Shown: in pieces, positions 3,524 through 32,287 of the stretch
Numbering within the stretch: position 1 is the first letter of the stretch
Layout: every line of letters begins with the position of its first letter
Source of the DNA: a virus
Length of the DNA stretch: 35,804 nucleotides
Strand: one strand, 5' to 3'
Virus record (IMG/VR): IMGVR_UViG_3300027834_000019
Span: 1-35,804 of that record
Notes under the pieces: generated by a model
What the model saw: only the letters and a program-made list of their open reading frames with translations
What the model was told of the DNA's origin: nothing
The model's database searches: none
Program-made: the position numbers and the translations under genes

Positions 3524-3949
3524 ATGCAAACAATAATTACTAATGTAGAAGCTTTAAAGATGCCAAAGTTAAAAATTAAACGCTGGTATCATGATGATTG
3601 CACATTAGGTCGCTTAACTTATGGTGATTTACAATGCTTCACACTTGAGTTGCCTTGGTTAGATAATCAGCAGAATATTAGCTGTATACCTGCTGCTGGC
3701 GCGTATCAAGGTCGTAAGCATAAAAGCCCATCTAACGGAGATTGCATAGCCATTGATAATGTATTAGGCCGAAGTCACATACAGATACATAAAGGCAATT
3801 ACACTAGAAATGTTAAAGGGTGCATCCTTGTTGGTGACAGTGTTAGGTTTTTGGATGGCGACAGTATTCCTGATGTTACAAATAGTACCGCGACATTGAG
3901 AAAGCTATTAAAGGTGCTGCCAAGTAAGTTTTTAATTGAAATAGAGTAG
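3524..3949 (+). CDS. DUF5675-family protein; candidate lysis enzyme
   Basis: This 141-residue protein has the features I associate with DUF5675: TLGRL near residue 27, FTLELPW-x-DN at about 39-48, NISCIP, then GRSHIQIHKGN (82-92) and GCILVG (99-104). The His-x-Gly-Asn followed by Gly-Cys (H89, C100) recalls the His and Cys of YkuD L,D-transpeptidase active sites, though the spacing is shorter. It starts behind TAGGAGAG and stands first in a putative lysis block. Since no lysozyme, amidase or transglycosylase was found elsewhere, I infer it may supply the wall-active function. DUF5675 proteins have no proven activity that I can cite. Confidence 0.78.
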   Translation: MQTIITNVEALKMPKLKIKRWYHDDCTLGRLTYGDLQCFTLELPWLDNQQNISCIPAAGAYQGRKHKSPSNGDCIAIDNVLGRSHIQIHKGNYTRNVKGCILVGDSVRFLDGDSIPDVTNSTATLRKLLKVLPSKFLIEIE

Positions 3950-6965: not shown

Positions 6966-7268
6966 ATGGCTAACAGAAAAGTCACAGCAAGAGAGATAAA
7001 CAGAGAAGAGTTAAGGCGATACTTATCTGAAAGAGGTAAGTTGTCTCATATCTTTGATAACCTTGAAAAACTAGAAGACCAAACAATAGAGATGGATAGT
7101 GTTGCTGTATCTAGAATAAACTCAGCAAATTCAACACGTTTAGCACTCCTTAAAAAATACCTACCCGATGAAAAGTCTGTTGAAATCAAAAACGCTGAAG
7201 GCGAAACATTTAAGAGTGATGGTAAGTGGACAGTGGAGTTTGTGAATGCCACTGTTGAAGATAAATAA
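6966..7268 (+). CDS. Putative terminase small subunit
   Basis: This 100-residue protein has an N-terminal charged helical region and an (RLALLKKYLPDEKSVEIKNAEGE) segment frequently seen at the end of small terminase-like proteins. It sits directly before and overlaps the large subunit gene by 23 bases. TerS proteins bind the packaging site and regulate the large subunit. The assignment rests on position and general features, since a clear HTH is not visible. Confidence 0.65.
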   Translation: MANRKVTAREINREELRRYLSERGKLSHIFDNLEKLEDQTIEMDSVAVSRINSANSTRLALLKKYLPDEKSVEIKNAEGETFKSDGKWTVEFVNATVEDK

Positions 7269-8700
7269 AAAACTAGAGCCATTTATTACTAAGCCTAAAC
7301 AGTTAAAGATTGCTATAGGTGGTCGCGGCTCTGGCAAATCAATTGGAATAGGTGACGCCTTAACATTCAAGATGGCAACCGAAAAGGCTGATATATATTG
7401 TTTGCGTGAGTTTCAGGACTCTATCGCTGATAGCGTACATCGAGTGTTTGAAGGTGCAATTAATGACCGCTTATTCTTAGATGGGTGGAATGTTCAAGAG
7501 AAAAAAATAATATCCCCTGAAGGCGCGCAGACAACATACAAAGGTGCATCAAGAAATCCTAACTCTATTCAATCAGCGCAGGGCTATAAGTACTCATGGT
7601 TTGAAGAAGCACAGACAATGAGCCAAGCATCTATTGATAAGCTTCTTCCAACTATATTAAGAAACCCTGGTGCAGAGTGTTGGTTTAGTGCTAACCCTCA
7701 ATCAAGTGCAGATCCATTTAGTCAAAGATTTATAGTTCCTTACCTTAAAGAGCTAGAAAAACATGGTTATTATGAAGATGATTTACATTTAATCATTGTA
7801 GTTAACTGGCGTGACAACCCTTGGTGGAATAACGAGCAAGAAACCTTAAGGTTATGGGATTACGCCAACCTATCAAGAGCTAAGTATGATTGGATATGGG
7901 AGGGTAAGTTTAATGATGAGGTTGAAGACTCTATCATTAAGGCTGAATGGTTTGATGCTTGTGTAGATGCTCACAAGATAGATAAGTTAAAAGAAGTATT
8001 TAAACCTCTAGGGGCTAAGATAGCGGCACACGATCCAAGCGATACAGGTAAGGATAATAAAGGTTATGCAATGCGGCATGGTTCTATTGTTCAACATATC
8101 TATGAAAAGAATTCAGGTGAGATTGATGTTGGTTGTGATTGGGCCACTAACTTAGCAAGAGAACATAAAGCTGATTGGTTTATATGGGATGGTGACGGAA
8201 TGGGTGCAGGGCTTAAGCGGCAAGTATCTAACAGCCTAGACTCAACTAATACTAAATATCAAATGTTCAAGGGTTCACTGTCAGGTAAAGGACAAGATAA
8301 TGCTGAAAGGCTTTACCAGAAAGATTACGGTGAAAAAAACAATCAACTAACGAACGCTGAAGTATTTAAGAATAACCGCGCTCAATACTATATTGCTTTA
8401 GCTGATAGATGTTACAACACTTACCGATGCGTTGTTAAAGGTGAGTATGTTGATCCTGAAGAAATGATAAGCTTTAACAGTGACGGAATAGAAAGCATAC
8501 CAGCTCTGAGGAGCGAGCTTTGTCGTATACCAAGAAAGAACAATAGTAACGGACTACAGCAAATAATGAACAAGCAAGAAATGAAGAAGCAAGGAATAGA
8601 TTCGCCTGGTATGGCTGACTCAATAATGATGGCAATGTTTACGCCACCACTAAAGAAAGCCAGAAAGAAATTAAACTATGGCAGGTCCAACGTGGTTTAA
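7246..8700 (+). CDS. terL: Terminase large subunit
   Basis: This 484-residue packaging motor has an N-terminal ATPase and a C-terminal nuclease. Walker A is GGRGSGKS at residues 25-32, and a Walker B-like segment is WFEEA at 118-122. Nuclease-domain acidic residues are visible as D263 (AHDPSD), D315/D317 (WDGDG) and D458 (SPGMADS). It resembles the PBSX/Terminase_3 group, used by many headful-packaging phages. The ATG at 7246 lies inside the small subunit gene. The last four bases overlap the stop of a minus-strand gene. Confidence 0.95.
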   Translation: MPLLKINKKLEPFITKPKQLKIAIGGRGSGKSIGIGDALTFKMATEKADIYCLREFQDSIADSVHRVFEGAINDRLFLDGWNVQEKKIISPEGAQTTYKGASRNPNSIQSAQGYKYSWFEEAQTMSQASIDKLLPTILRNPGAECWFSANPQSSADPFSQRFIVPYLKELEKHGYYEDDLHLIIVVNWRDNPWWNNEQETLRLWDYANLSRAKYDWIWEGKFNDEVEDSIIKAEWFDACVDAHKIDKLKEVFKPLGAKIAAHDPSDTGKDNKGYAMRHGSIVQHIYEKNSGEIDVGCDWATNLAREHKADWFIWDGDGMGAGLKRQVSNSLDSTNTKYQMFKGSLSGKGQDNAERLYQKDYGEKNNQLTNAEVFKNNRAQYYIALADRCYNTYRCVVKGEYVDPEEMISFNSDGIESIPALRSELCRIPRKNNSNGLQQIMNKQEMKKQGIDSPGMADSIMMAMFTPPLKKARKKLNYGRSNVV

Positions 8701-8867
8701 CGTGATGAAGGAGATCTCCCCGTTGTGTTTTGAAAGCATTTAGGGGCTGACAACGTGCGATTAGCCAGTCCTTTACACTTACACTCAACCATTAATTTGT
8801 CATCTTCTACCATGCGCTCGAATACAATGCCAGTTTCAGAGCATTTAAAATCTCTAAGTTTTTTCAT
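8697..8867 (-). CDS. Small FmdB-like zinc-ribbon protein
   Basis: Read on the minus strand, ATG at 8867 behind GAGGATAG opens a 56-residue frame. It has FKC near the start, then VECKCKG-x-ANRTLSAPKCF and a C-terminal TTGRSPSS. The pattern matches small zinc-ribbon proteins (FmdB-like) that many phages carry. Function unknown. It follows the HTH gene at 8854-9033 with overlap and converges on the terminase gene. Confidence 0.72.
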   Translation of the reverse strand: MKKLRDFKCSETGIVFERMVEDDKLMVECKCKGLANRTLSAPKCFQNTTGRSPSSR

Positions 8868-9033
8868 TGAATCTATCCTCTAAACCGTTACACATATCTT
8901 CTAATTGCTGAACTAACGAAGGGTTGTTACATCTTGCGTTGTAAGTGGCAATTCTCATGCCCCACCTACTACAAGCTTGCTCAACCGTCCAGCCTTTACC
9001 TGTTAATATTCTTGTTGCTCTGTGTTTTATCAT
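8854..9033 (-). CDS. HTH regulator-like protein
   Basis: This 59-residue minus-strand frame reads MIKHRATRILTG, then GWTVEQACSRWGMRIATYNA, a compact helix-turn-helix, and an acidic C-terminus. It is oriented against all neighbouring virion genes. Its 3' end overlaps the zinc-ribbon gene by 14 bases. The shared upstream region holds divergent promoters and a direct repeat, so autoregulation and control of the portal operon are possible. The ribosome binding site is weak. Confidence 0.7.
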   Translation of the reverse strand: MIKHRATRILTGKGWTVEQACSRWGMRIATYNARCNNPSLVQQLEDMCNGLEDRFNEKT

Positions 9034-9065
9034 TACATACCCGTATAATACGCCTATTCAGTATT

Positions 9066-9091
9066 CGATTATCGCACATTTAAACGATTAT
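9066..9091. promoter_or_regulatory. Direct repeat CGATTAT, possible operator
   Basis: CGATTAT occurs at 9066-9072 and 9085-9091, 19 bases apart start to start, close to two helical turns. The first copy overlaps the minus -10 and the second the minus -35. It lies just upstream of the HTH gene, making it a candidate binding site for that protein. CGATTATCG at the first copy is also an imperfect palindrome. Confidence 0.4.
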
Positions 9092-9095
9092 GCAA
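9068..9095 (-). promoter_or_regulatory. Promoter for the minus-strand HTH/zinc-ribbon pair
   Basis: On the minus strand TTGCAT (9090-9095) and GATAAT (9068-9073) are 16 bases apart, with the -10 about 35 bases before the HTH start codon at 9033. Confidence 0.5.
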
Positions 9096-9107
9096 ACAAG
9101 CTATAAT
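9079..9107 (+). promoter_or_regulatory. Promoter for the portal operon
   Basis: A perfect TATAAT at 9102-9107 is preceded at 17 bases by TTTAAA (9079-9084), a weak -35. It lies 28 bases before the portal ATG and overlaps the divergent minus promoter, so both could be controlled together. Confidence 0.5.
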
Positions 9108-9134
9108 AAGTAAAACAAATTCAAAGGTTCACTA

Positions 9135-30188: not shown

Positions 30189-31184
30189 ATGATCAAGGTA
30201 GTTAGCTTTAGTGGAGGGAGAACCAGCGCAAAACTGTGTCACCGTATGATTAAAAAGTTTGGACGAAAGAGAGTTAAGTTTATTTATATGGATACAGGCT
30301 TAGAGCACCCGAAAACATACGAGTTTATAAAAAATGTAAATAAAACCTTTGAATTGAATCTTACGTGCTTACAAGCGGATTTTTCAAAGCCTCTTAACTC
30401 CCCAACTGCATACACTGTTGTCGATATTGAATCACTAAAGACTGACTTCTCAATATTTAGGGCAATGCTGGCTAAGTATGGAGTGCCTTATATTGGCGGT
30501 ATGTATTGCACTAGTCGATTAAAAACAAGGCCATTCAAAGCTTATTGTAAGTCTATATATGGTGATGACTACGAAACATGGTTAGGTATTAGAGCGGATG
30601 AGCCAGCTAGACTGATTGGAGGTAAGAATTACATCGCTGCTAAGAAAGAAATCGGATGCACTCCTGAGATGGCTTTAGATATGTATAGGGACTTTAAAGA
30701 GCACGGTGTCCCTGGCTTGTCTAATCACTTTGTTTTAAGTGAAAAGAGAGAAAGAAAAGTTTTTGATAAAATCTATAAACACTTAGATCAACAAAGAATA
30801 GATAACAAGCACCATTTAGCTGATATATCAGACGATGAAAAATGGGATATAAATAGATTTTGGGAAAGTCAACTATTTGATTTAGAAATAAATGACTGGC
30901 TAGGTAATTGTATGTTTTGCCCTAAAAAATCAGATCTAAAGCTTGTTGCTGCTAGCATGGATGAAGAGGGATACTACAATAAATACGTAGAGATGGTGAA
31001 ATCTGAACATGTAAGGATTGATGGGATACAAGGTAGGGAATCAAAAATGTACCGAGGGAAGCAGTCAATTGATAATTTGATCGGTAAATTTGACGGAGTA
31101 ACTGGTGAAGAAATAAAACAAAGAATTAAAGGCGAGCATAGAACGGACACGGGTTCGTGTTCTGAAAGTTGTGAGTTACTATAA
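30189..31184 (+). CDS. PP-loop ATPase, PAPS reductase-like protein
   Basis: This 331-residue protein has the PP-loop SFSGGRTS at 6-13, a second conserved block with YMDTGLEHP, and cysteines at C107, C241-x2-C244 and a C-terminal C324-x3-C328. These match phage homologues of PAPS reductase and related sulfurtransferase-like proteins. Such proteins may activate ATP and transfer sulfur or form an adenylate, but the phage role is unknown. It has its own promoter and precedes the structured non-coding stretch. Sulfate assimilation, tRNA thiolation and DNA backbone modification are possible alternatives. Confidence 0.85.
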   Translation: MIKVVSFSGGRTSAKLCHRMIKKFGRKRVKFIYMDTGLEHPKTYEFIKNVNKTFELNLTCLQADFSKPLNSPTAYTVVDIESLKTDFSIFRAMLAKYGVPYIGGMYCTSRLKTRPFKAYCKSIYGDDYETWLGIRADEPARLIGGKNYIAAKKEIGCTPEMALDMYRDFKEHGVPGLSNHFVLSEKRERKVFDKIYKHLDQQRIDNKHHLADISDDEKWDINRFWESQLFDLEINDWLGNCMFCPKKSDLKLVAASMDEEGYYNKYVEMVKSEHVRIDGIQGRESKMYRGKQSIDNLIGKFDGVTGEEIKQRIKGEHRTDTGSCSESCELL

Positions 31185-31373
31185 ACTAAACTTGAAAACA
31201 AAGAGGTAAAATAATACAATAGTATTTGTCAATTGAAGTTTAATTGATAGCAGAGTGAAGACTGCTTAGAAAGTAAATTGAATGAGGGTATTTAGAACTG
31301 TGATCTTTGGTGGGTTTTTTCTCATTGAATTTCGCCCCTCTTCAACAGAGGTCATAGTTTTAAGTGCCCTTTT

Positions 31374-31447
31374 TTGTGTCTGTTAGTTAGGTTCATAGCT
31401 TAGTAAGTAATATCTTTCACAGTAGATATATTCACTAACAGACACAA
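31374..31447. repeat. Perfect 14-bp inverted repeat with nested hairpin
   Basis: TTGTGTCTGTTAGT (31374-31387) and ACTAACAGACACAA (31434-31447) pair perfectly across 46 bases. Inside, AATATCT-like bases (31410-31415) pair with AGATAT-like bases (31424-31429). No T-run follows. The repeat could be a large RNA stem or the ends of a short inserted element. Confidence 0.75.
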
Positions 31448-31601
31448 CCCCTTTCAAAGCATCTTCAATCTGCCGAACAAACAAACCACTAGTCGTAAGG
31501 ATGCGACCGATAAACGATGTGAATCAGGTATTGAGAAGTACGGTGGCCTAACCCCTAACTTAGCCGTGGGGTGGTGGATAAACGAATTAAAACCTTGGTA
31601 A
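31407..31601 (+). pseudogene. Start-less coding-like fragment
   Basis: The frame from 31407 to the TAA at 31599-31601 contains no stop for 64 codons and ends with ...TPNLAVGWWINELKPW, a protein-like tail. It has no ATG and no ribosome binding site. It could be the end of a decayed gene from an inserted element or a chance open frame in structured DNA. Confidence 0.35.
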
Positions 31602-31799
31602 GATCATTATAGAGATAAGCAGAAGTTGAAGCTGCATTAACAAAACAAGAAGCTCATTAATGTTACCCGTCCTGATATGACGATAAACTATGTTCGATAA
31701 ATTTGTTTGTAATTGACTAGCTAAATATAAATTAATAATAAGTATCTTTCTTGGCTTACCAAGTAACGTACTTAAATGTCACCCTATGGGAAAAATATA

Positions 31800-32246
31800 A
31801 TGTATGTTTACTTAATACAAAGCGGTAAATCAAATAACTCTTCTGTAAAAATCGGAGTAGCTAAAGAGCCTGAAAAAAGAATTTTAGAATTACAGGTCGG
31901 CAATGCTTACTTGCTAACTCTTATAGGAAAAATACCAGCTAACAGTCGAAAGCATGCTGAATACCTTGAGTCTAGATTGCACAAATACTTTTCCAGATAT
32001 CATATACGGGGTGAATGGTTTCAGGGTAAGAAGATAAACATAAAGCAGGCTATTGATTATATTGGTAATGACTGTTTGAAGTATGAGGACTTGAAAGGTA
32101 GTGCAATACACGGCTCTAAGAAAGAGCAGAGAATAGAGAGGTTATCGAGCGAAAATAAAAGTCTACATACGGCTATAGGCTTGTTGAATGAATCAATTGA
32201 CGAAGAGCTTGATCGCCAATCAATGGCTAATATGCCAGAACTATAA
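31800..32246 (+). CDS. GIY-YIG/T5orf172-type nuclease-like protein
   Basis: Starting at the ATG at 31800 (the MYVYLIQ start typical of this family, with GGGA upstream), this 148-residue protein has YVYLIQ (2-7), VKIGV (16-20), R27, E57 with LH at 60-61, and GEWF (71-74). These match the T5orf172/MUG113 branch of GIY-YIG nucleases. The C-terminal half is a coiled coil. Such proteins can be free-standing mobile endonucleases or regulators. A longer start at 31776 has no ribosome binding site. Confidence 0.8.
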   Translation: MYVYLIQSGKSNNSSVKIGVAKEPEKRILELQVGNAYLLTLIGKIPANSRKHAEYLESRLHKYFSRYHIRGEWFQGKKINIKQAIDYIGNDCLKYEDLKGSAIHGSKKEQRIERLSSENKSLHTAIGLLNESIDEELDRQSMANMPEL

Positions 32247-32287
32247 ATCTAATGACCCTAATATTTAAAATAAAGAGGAGAGAAGTA

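Follow-up and report, generated by a model that had tools for sequence, protein, structure and literature searches.

A structured phage RNA with a GOLLD-like layout, embedded tRNA genes and homing-type nuclease genes in its 3' tail, predicted from comparison of marine phage genomes

Introduction

What does a phage keep in several hundred bases that encode no protein? The window analyzed here, a 35,804-nt stretch of viral DNA (IMG/VR record IMGVR_UViG_3300027834_000019), raises this question at positions 31185-31799, between a PAPS-reductase-like gene whose stop lies at 31184 and a GIY-YIG (T5orf172/MUG113) nuclease gene on the + strand (31800-32246, ATG at 31800; Pfam PF10544, 8e-11, and PF13455, 9e-12). 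A first-pass annotation, made from the sequence alone, had described this interval as free of genes, and no ORF of 60 a.a. or more indeed lies within it. A large structured RNA, a replication origin and the trace of a nuclease insertion had been considered as explanations. The interval had also been called the most unexplained part of the genome, which is fair, although the window holds other gene-poor gaps, for example at 8701-9134. That gap, 434 nt without an ORF of 60 a.a., is located directly upstream of an SU10-type portal gene.

Large RNAs are known from phages. GOLLD and ROOL, both encoded near tRNA genes, form cages with kissing loops and with the linker inside (PMC12286853). In GOLLD, the 5' and 3' regions form distinct domains, tRNAs are sometimes found in the linker, and kissing loops join chains (PMC12286853). 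In the Vibrio cholerae phage ICP1, a non-coding RNA in the gap between ORF139 and ORF140 is the most abundant transcript (PMC7567579). Genes for homing endonucleases of the T5orf172/GIY-YIG and HNH types are known to lie at phage recombination boundaries (PMC10448857).

Results

The gene-free stretch belongs to a family of phage loci

The predicted fold of the + strand reached -164.8 kcal/mol, compared with -129.4 kcal/mol (sd 6.3) in 20 shuffles (z = -5.6), while the - strand gave a z of only -1.4. The shift in base composition noticed earlier in the middle of the stretch is real but modest, the GC skew changing sign around 31325-31474. Searches with Rfam models, which covered GOLLD, ROOL and group I introns, were negative: no Rfam family, tRNA or tmRNA matched within 31185-31799. 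These searches were run at the gathering threshold and at relaxed thresholds, and the latter produced only chance eukaryotic matches, which were discarded.

Chained searches combined with IMG/VR pattern scans yielded a set of 51 loci in similar gene gaps, from Vibrio and Pseudoalteromonas phages and marine viral contigs; many pattern-scan matches were dropped on inspection as chance. Among distant relatives, blastn with the stretch detected only a 5' core of ~130 nt, in Vibrio phages NF and 1.054.O and Pseudoalteromonas phage HS2, where the cores lie within intergenic gaps of ~550-650 nt. Pq0 and vB_VaM_H2 join these three as cultivated phages (Vibrio, Pseudoalteromonas) carrying the family. 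The 5'-domain model scored 124 bits on the + strand and 20 on the - strand. R1, a covariance model of the 5' core, recovered 5' subtypes on which it had not been trained, with E-values of 1e-12 to 1e-17 in one group, 2e-8 to 6e-3 in more distant ones and 0.035 in the weakest. Three matches emerged from a pattern scan of a genome collection, one of which, a 38.5-kb Colwellia MAG contig, was confirmed by R1. Among bacterial genomes, R1 matched 1 of 297 in the family-level set and 4 of 395 in the order-level set (two of these four weakly). Because matches in bacterial genomes are nearly absent, we regard the RNA family as phage-borne. Its members extend over ~400-780 nt from the first hairpin to the next gene and occur in mutually unrelated genome contexts. 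The family is absent from RNA databases and common to many marine bacteriophages, and no earlier description of the RNA was found in the literature that was searched.

A 5' domain with a pseudoknot and a kissing loop

All features described below lie on the + strand. The stretch begins with a promoter-like site, TTGAAA-17-TACAAT (31192-31220), which has 10 of 12 matches; the number of such sites found in the region is not above that in shuffles. A -10 element ends 5-8 nt upstream of P0, the first conserved hairpin, in 23 of 36 members (shuffle mean 4.4, maximum 11). Just upstream of the RNA, five members (L054, L055, L061, L064 and L065) share a conserved CCCACTTTGCATTTGTG.GGAGTGGGTATAAT segment, common in Vibrio phages, which is an inverted repeat across the likely promoter and a candidate operator.

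An extra hairpin at 31229-31247 (TCAATTGAA/TTAATTGA) characterizes the window's subtype and is likewise present in L037 and L101. P0 follows at 31249-31266 (stem 31249-31253/31262-31266), with 100% of cells paired and compensatory changes in three of its five pairs. Its loop contains the 5' strand of the kissing interaction K (TGAAGA, 31256-31261), whose partner is TCTTCA at 31339-31344, and the compensatory changes in K are repeated ones (GC21/AU4, GC14/AU10 and UA13/AU11/CG1). P3 is a 25-pair helix (31285-31309/31346-31370, spanning 31285-31370), and its loop carries the 3' strands of both K and the pseudoknot P2 (31275-31284 with 31323-31332, one G.G mismatch). A U-tract with T columns that are invariant in alignment A4 directly follows P3 (31370-31375).

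We evaluated the covariation of P0, K, P2 and P3 on 25-36 sequences. In a permutation test, the strands of each sequence were paired with each other or with the strands of other members; the own strands were more stable in P2 (-9.5 versus -7.0 kcal/mol), K (-8.7 versus -6.1) and P3 (-30.4 versus -18.1), and this was reached in 0 of 2000 permutations for each. Counted by columns, 87.7% of the cells in the 5' domain are paired and 25 pairs changed on both sides, which occurred in 0 of 500 shuffles. P2 is misplaced in the MAFFT columns, so its support comes from the permutation test. Kinship of the sequences inflates the shuffle tests, but two further observations agree with them: sliding the register by one to three columns lowered the pairing from ~88% to below 50%, and K shows the two-sided changes (GC/AU, UA/AU/CG) repeatedly. 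In the nested 5' helices, G-U cells outnumber A-C cells by 123 to 9, an excess that a DNA cruciform would not give, indicating that selection acts on the + strand RNA.

The helix P1 (31264-31273, GCTTAGAAAG, with 31451-31460, CTTTCAAAGC) seems to close the linker and would thereby join both halves of the RNA. The pairing is present in most members, including the tRNA-bearing L004; its covariation, measured on own versus cross-paired strands, was not significant (152 of 2000 permutations).

A separately closed 3' domain exchanged between phages

The 3' domain (31477-31710) is predicted from alignment A5 to be closed by P5 (31477-31485/31702-31710). Inside it, P6 (31486-31546; stem 31486-31490/31542-31546) pairs CCAC with GTGG in the window and is GGAT/ATCC, CACC/GGTG or CTCC/GGAG elsewhere, with 100% pairing. 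The alignment and covariation further support P7 (31551-31572, ACCCC/GGGGT), with the conserved loop TAACTTAGCCGT, and P9 (31668-31682, CGTC/GACG). In A5, P5, P6, P7 and P9 together have 96% of cells paired and 15 pairs with double changes, compared with 0 of 500 shuffles and at most 46% pairing when slid. Two more hairpins were taken from the alignment and inverted repeats: P8 (31619-31635, GCAG/CTGC), which is provisional, was read from A5 and lies outside the covariation test, and the terminal P10 (31739-31774), an inverted repeat of 81% complementarity with a conserved loop around TTACCAAGTAAC, is also found in L039, L081, L191, L192 and L195. The boundaries drawn by the first-pass annotation therefore fit well, since the promoter-like site lies just inside the left one and 31774 is the final base of the last conserved hairpin. 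An intrinsic terminator was not seen where the window's RNA ends; this RNA extends up to the next start codon, and in nearly all members the gene that follows has the same orientation.

The window's 3' type recurs in L039, L081, L141, L191, L192 and L195, and other members have other 3' types. L002 and L065 share a 3' domain that is 95.5% identical over 290 nt and differ in their 5' domains. Comparison across the phages shows that the two domains are exchanged freely. The Colwellia contig (JAESPR010000055.1, 38.5 kb) holds two RNA copies, L188 and L183, with different 5' domains and ~15 kb apart; the second copy is followed by an HNH gene between two versions of the RNA tail. In Vibrio phage vB_VpP_BT-1011, a decayed copy (L058, 1986-2300) consists of an intact 5' domain, then the beginning of a tRNA-Met-like sequence, then a protein gene, and its 3' domain appears to have been lost.

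The linker position is occupied by a hairpin or by tRNA genes

Between the two domains, the window has a variable linker hairpin (31374-31447) in the position where other members have tRNA genes. This is the 14-pair stem reported earlier, and its pairing (31374-31387/31434-31447) is perfect. We searched the 51 loci (406 kb) with ARAGORN and found 11 canonical tRNA genes. All 11 are located inside the RNA and on its strand, after the 5' domain and before the 3' region. Six are Arg-TCT. In L004, the genes for tRNA-Trp and tRNA-Arg begin exactly where the linker hairpin of the window begins. Most members have no tRNA.

Other elements were also seen. In the linker of Vibrio phage 242E40-1 (L054, 1679-1781) lies a tRNA-like element, annotated as tRNA-Und, whose anticodon arm is expanded and which may be a decoy or a non-decoding tRNA mimic; a second tRNA-like remnant is present in L021. 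In some members (L012 at 7112-8221, L039, L028 and L035), a large branched hairpin is added after the linker and before the 3' domain, apparently another insertable module.

Homing-type nuclease genes occupy the 3' tail

We examined 30 downstream genes. T5orf172/GIY-YIG genes follow the RNA in L037, L077, L097 and L099 as well as in the window, and HNH/AP2-type genes follow it in L065, L188 and L192 (Pfam), in L081 and L195 (weak AP2 matches) and in L064 (annotation). Other genes that follow the RNA encode methylases, phosphoesterases or DnaT-like proteins. Many members have no nuclease, and unrelated nuclease families occupy the same place.

Several of the nuclease stop codons are followed immediately by the RNA tail that precedes the next gene in nuclease-free members. 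In the window, this leftover 3' tail of another RNA copy (ATCTAATGACCCTAATATTTAAAATAAAGAGGAG, 32247-32282) starts directly after the GIY-YIG stop codon. An nhmmer profile built from six nuclease-free RNA tails and run against 159 kb matched right behind the nuclease in L037 (2e-8), L188 (2e-6), the window (32247-32276, 0.0016) and L192 (0.004), and more weakly in L077 (0.18). The most likely history of the window's GIY-YIG gene is therefore insertion into the 3' end of an RNA locus, which left one RNA copy ahead of the gene and the recipient's tail behind it. With its insertion site visible and its nuclease domain present, the gene looks like a homing insertion. The earlier idea of an insertion trace is thus half right: the nuclease downstream appears to have been inserted into the 3' end of such an RNA gene, displacing the tail that survives at 32247-32282, whereas 31185-31799 is no scar and holds an RNA gene that is intact. 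In L140, the RNA tail (3718-3741) lies right behind a non-nuclease ORF with a weak DUF1133 match, and non-nuclease cargo may enter the same tail site.

Discussion

The proposal that the stretch encodes a large structured RNA is strongly supported by the homologues, by covariation that includes the pseudoknot and the kissing loop, by the strand-specific G-U wobble and by the promoter position. The stretch is almost certainly the gene for a structured phage RNA, and it very probably makes one two-domain RNA. Comparison of the members shows a 5' domain with a predicted kissing loop and pseudoknot, a linker and a separately closed 3' domain; it likewise shows domains that exchange freely, tRNA genes only inside the RNA, and homing-type nuclease genes in the 3' tail, including that of the window.

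As a whole, we consider it reasonably probable that the locus produces a two-domain non-coding phage RNA of ~500-550 nt, transcribed rightward from its own promoter, with a GOLLD/ROOL-like action. The RNA would be made as a single transcript and kept as a stable RNA during infection, and would act as GOLLD and ROOL do: the two rigid domains would build a compact, probably multimeric particle via contacts of the kissing-loop type, and the particle would shelter the linker, whether this is the hairpin or phage tRNAs awaiting processing or protection. The more speculative part, which we rate as slightly less likely than not, is a particle of the GOLLD kind that acts for the linker or the tRNAs. 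Several observations weigh against the whole explanation: the RNA of the window has no intrinsic terminator at its 3' end and the downstream genes are almost always co-oriented, as a long leader would also have it; the permutation support for P1 is weak; and most members lack a tRNA.

GOLLD assembles as a 14-mer nanocage. Like GOLLD (RF02032), the new RNA is large and phage-encoded, with two domains, a variable linker that sometimes contains tRNAs, pseudoknots and kissing loops, here predicted from sequence. It differs in that it spans ~400-780 nt to the next gene, whereas GOLLD often exceeds 800 nt, and in that many members carry homing nucleases in the 3' tail. The RF02032 model (gathering score, E<=1) found no match in the window and 11 named member phages; control genomes were also silent, so this indicates only that no match is detectable. 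By such comparisons the new RNA resembles GOLLD in layout and is not a member of it, with no detectable sequence relationship. It shares with ROOL (RF03087) a similar size (659 nt in the env-120 example), multiple pseudoknots, a disordered linker, occurrence in phages or prophages and frequent proximity to tRNAs. However, the 5' and 3' regions of ROOL are intertwined and co-evolve, whereas the 5' and 3' types here recombine freely. The RF03087 model gave no match over whole phage records, where again the control genomes were silent and the result speaks only of detectability. The abundant ICP1 RNA resembles the new one in being large, non-coding and encoded between genes of a Vibrio phage, but it has a terminator-like end and ICP1 lacks tRNAs (PMC7567579). 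We rejected it as a relative, since R1 with filters off gave no detection.

The leading alternative, which we consider unlikely while giving it real weight, is a long structured 5' leader or processive-antitermination element, in which P3 and the U-tract would form a conditional terminator and pseudoknot folding would decide on read-through downstream. P3 with the conserved U-tract directly behind it is shaped like an intrinsic terminator, and an own promoter upstream, the missing 3' terminator and a co-oriented next gene in nearly all members fit a leader as well. Co-orientation, however, is normal in phage operons, and the genes downstream (GIY-YIG, HNH, methylases, phosphoesterase, DnaT-like) are unrelated; past the U-tract follows a second domain, the 3' one, which is conserved in its own right, and the tRNA genes lie behind the would-be terminator.

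The placement of every tRNA gene of the loci inside the RNA, and of the tRNA 5' ends of L004 at the hairpin start, would also fit a tRNA-delivery cassette, that is, a precursor scaffold for the expression and processing of embedded tRNAs, with hairpin-only members as remnants whose tRNA is gone. The tRNA-like element in L054, with its expanded anticodon arm, and the second remnant in L021 point the same way, but the tRNA-free majority keeps both domains under strong structural constraint, and we judge a mere cassette improbable.

GIY-YIG and HNH genes adjoin the RNA in many members, as they do with intron-borne homing endonucleases, which would suit a mobile element of the ribozyme type (a group I/II intron or an OMEGA/HEARO-like RNA) that relies on the nuclease next to it. 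This is very improbable: no Rfam model of such families matched in the window up to E 10, the two flanking genes are distinct and no split exon was seen, many members are nuclease-free, and unrelated nucleases occur at the same place. A group I intron in particular was rejected, given the lack of a model match at E<=10 and the position of the stretch between the PAPS-reductase-like and GIY-YIG genes, neither of which appears to be split. A DNA-level element with cruciforms (a replication origin, as first suggested, or a packaging or recombination site) is least credible of all: recombination around the locus is frequent, but G-U far exceeds A-C, the fold and its conservation are specific to one strand, relatives embed tRNA genes on that strand, and the genome contexts are unrelated.

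Returning to the two-domain RNA, we tentatively suggest a broader reading, to which we give less than even confidence: a third class of 'ornate' phage RNA, with a sequence unrelated to those of GOLLD and ROOL, would follow the same logic of exchangeable domains that form a particle with the linker, often phage tRNAs, inside. Its gene would be a shared homing site for unrelated nucleases, which would spread the RNA between phages and shuffle its domains, and the particle would perhaps shield phage tRNAs from host tRNA-cleaving defence. The nuclease families that adjoin the RNA are those of free-standing phage homing endonuclease genes (T5orf172/GIY-YIG, HNH); what differs here is the site, a non-coding RNA gene's 3' tail, which at least two unrelated families use. 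Repair after homing would be a natural cause of domain shuffling (cf. PMC10448857).

The function of GOLLD and ROOL is an open question, for which an independent family with the same layout would be a convergent case. The presence of the RNA in cultivated Vibrio and Pseudoalteromonas phages offers easily grown systems in which to ask what such RNAs do with tRNAs, and the finding that tRNA genes are placed nowhere else in the loci than inside the RNA is a sharp clue that can be tested. The insertion of homing nucleases into a gene for a non-coding RNA, finally, would explain how RNA domains may be shuffled among phages.
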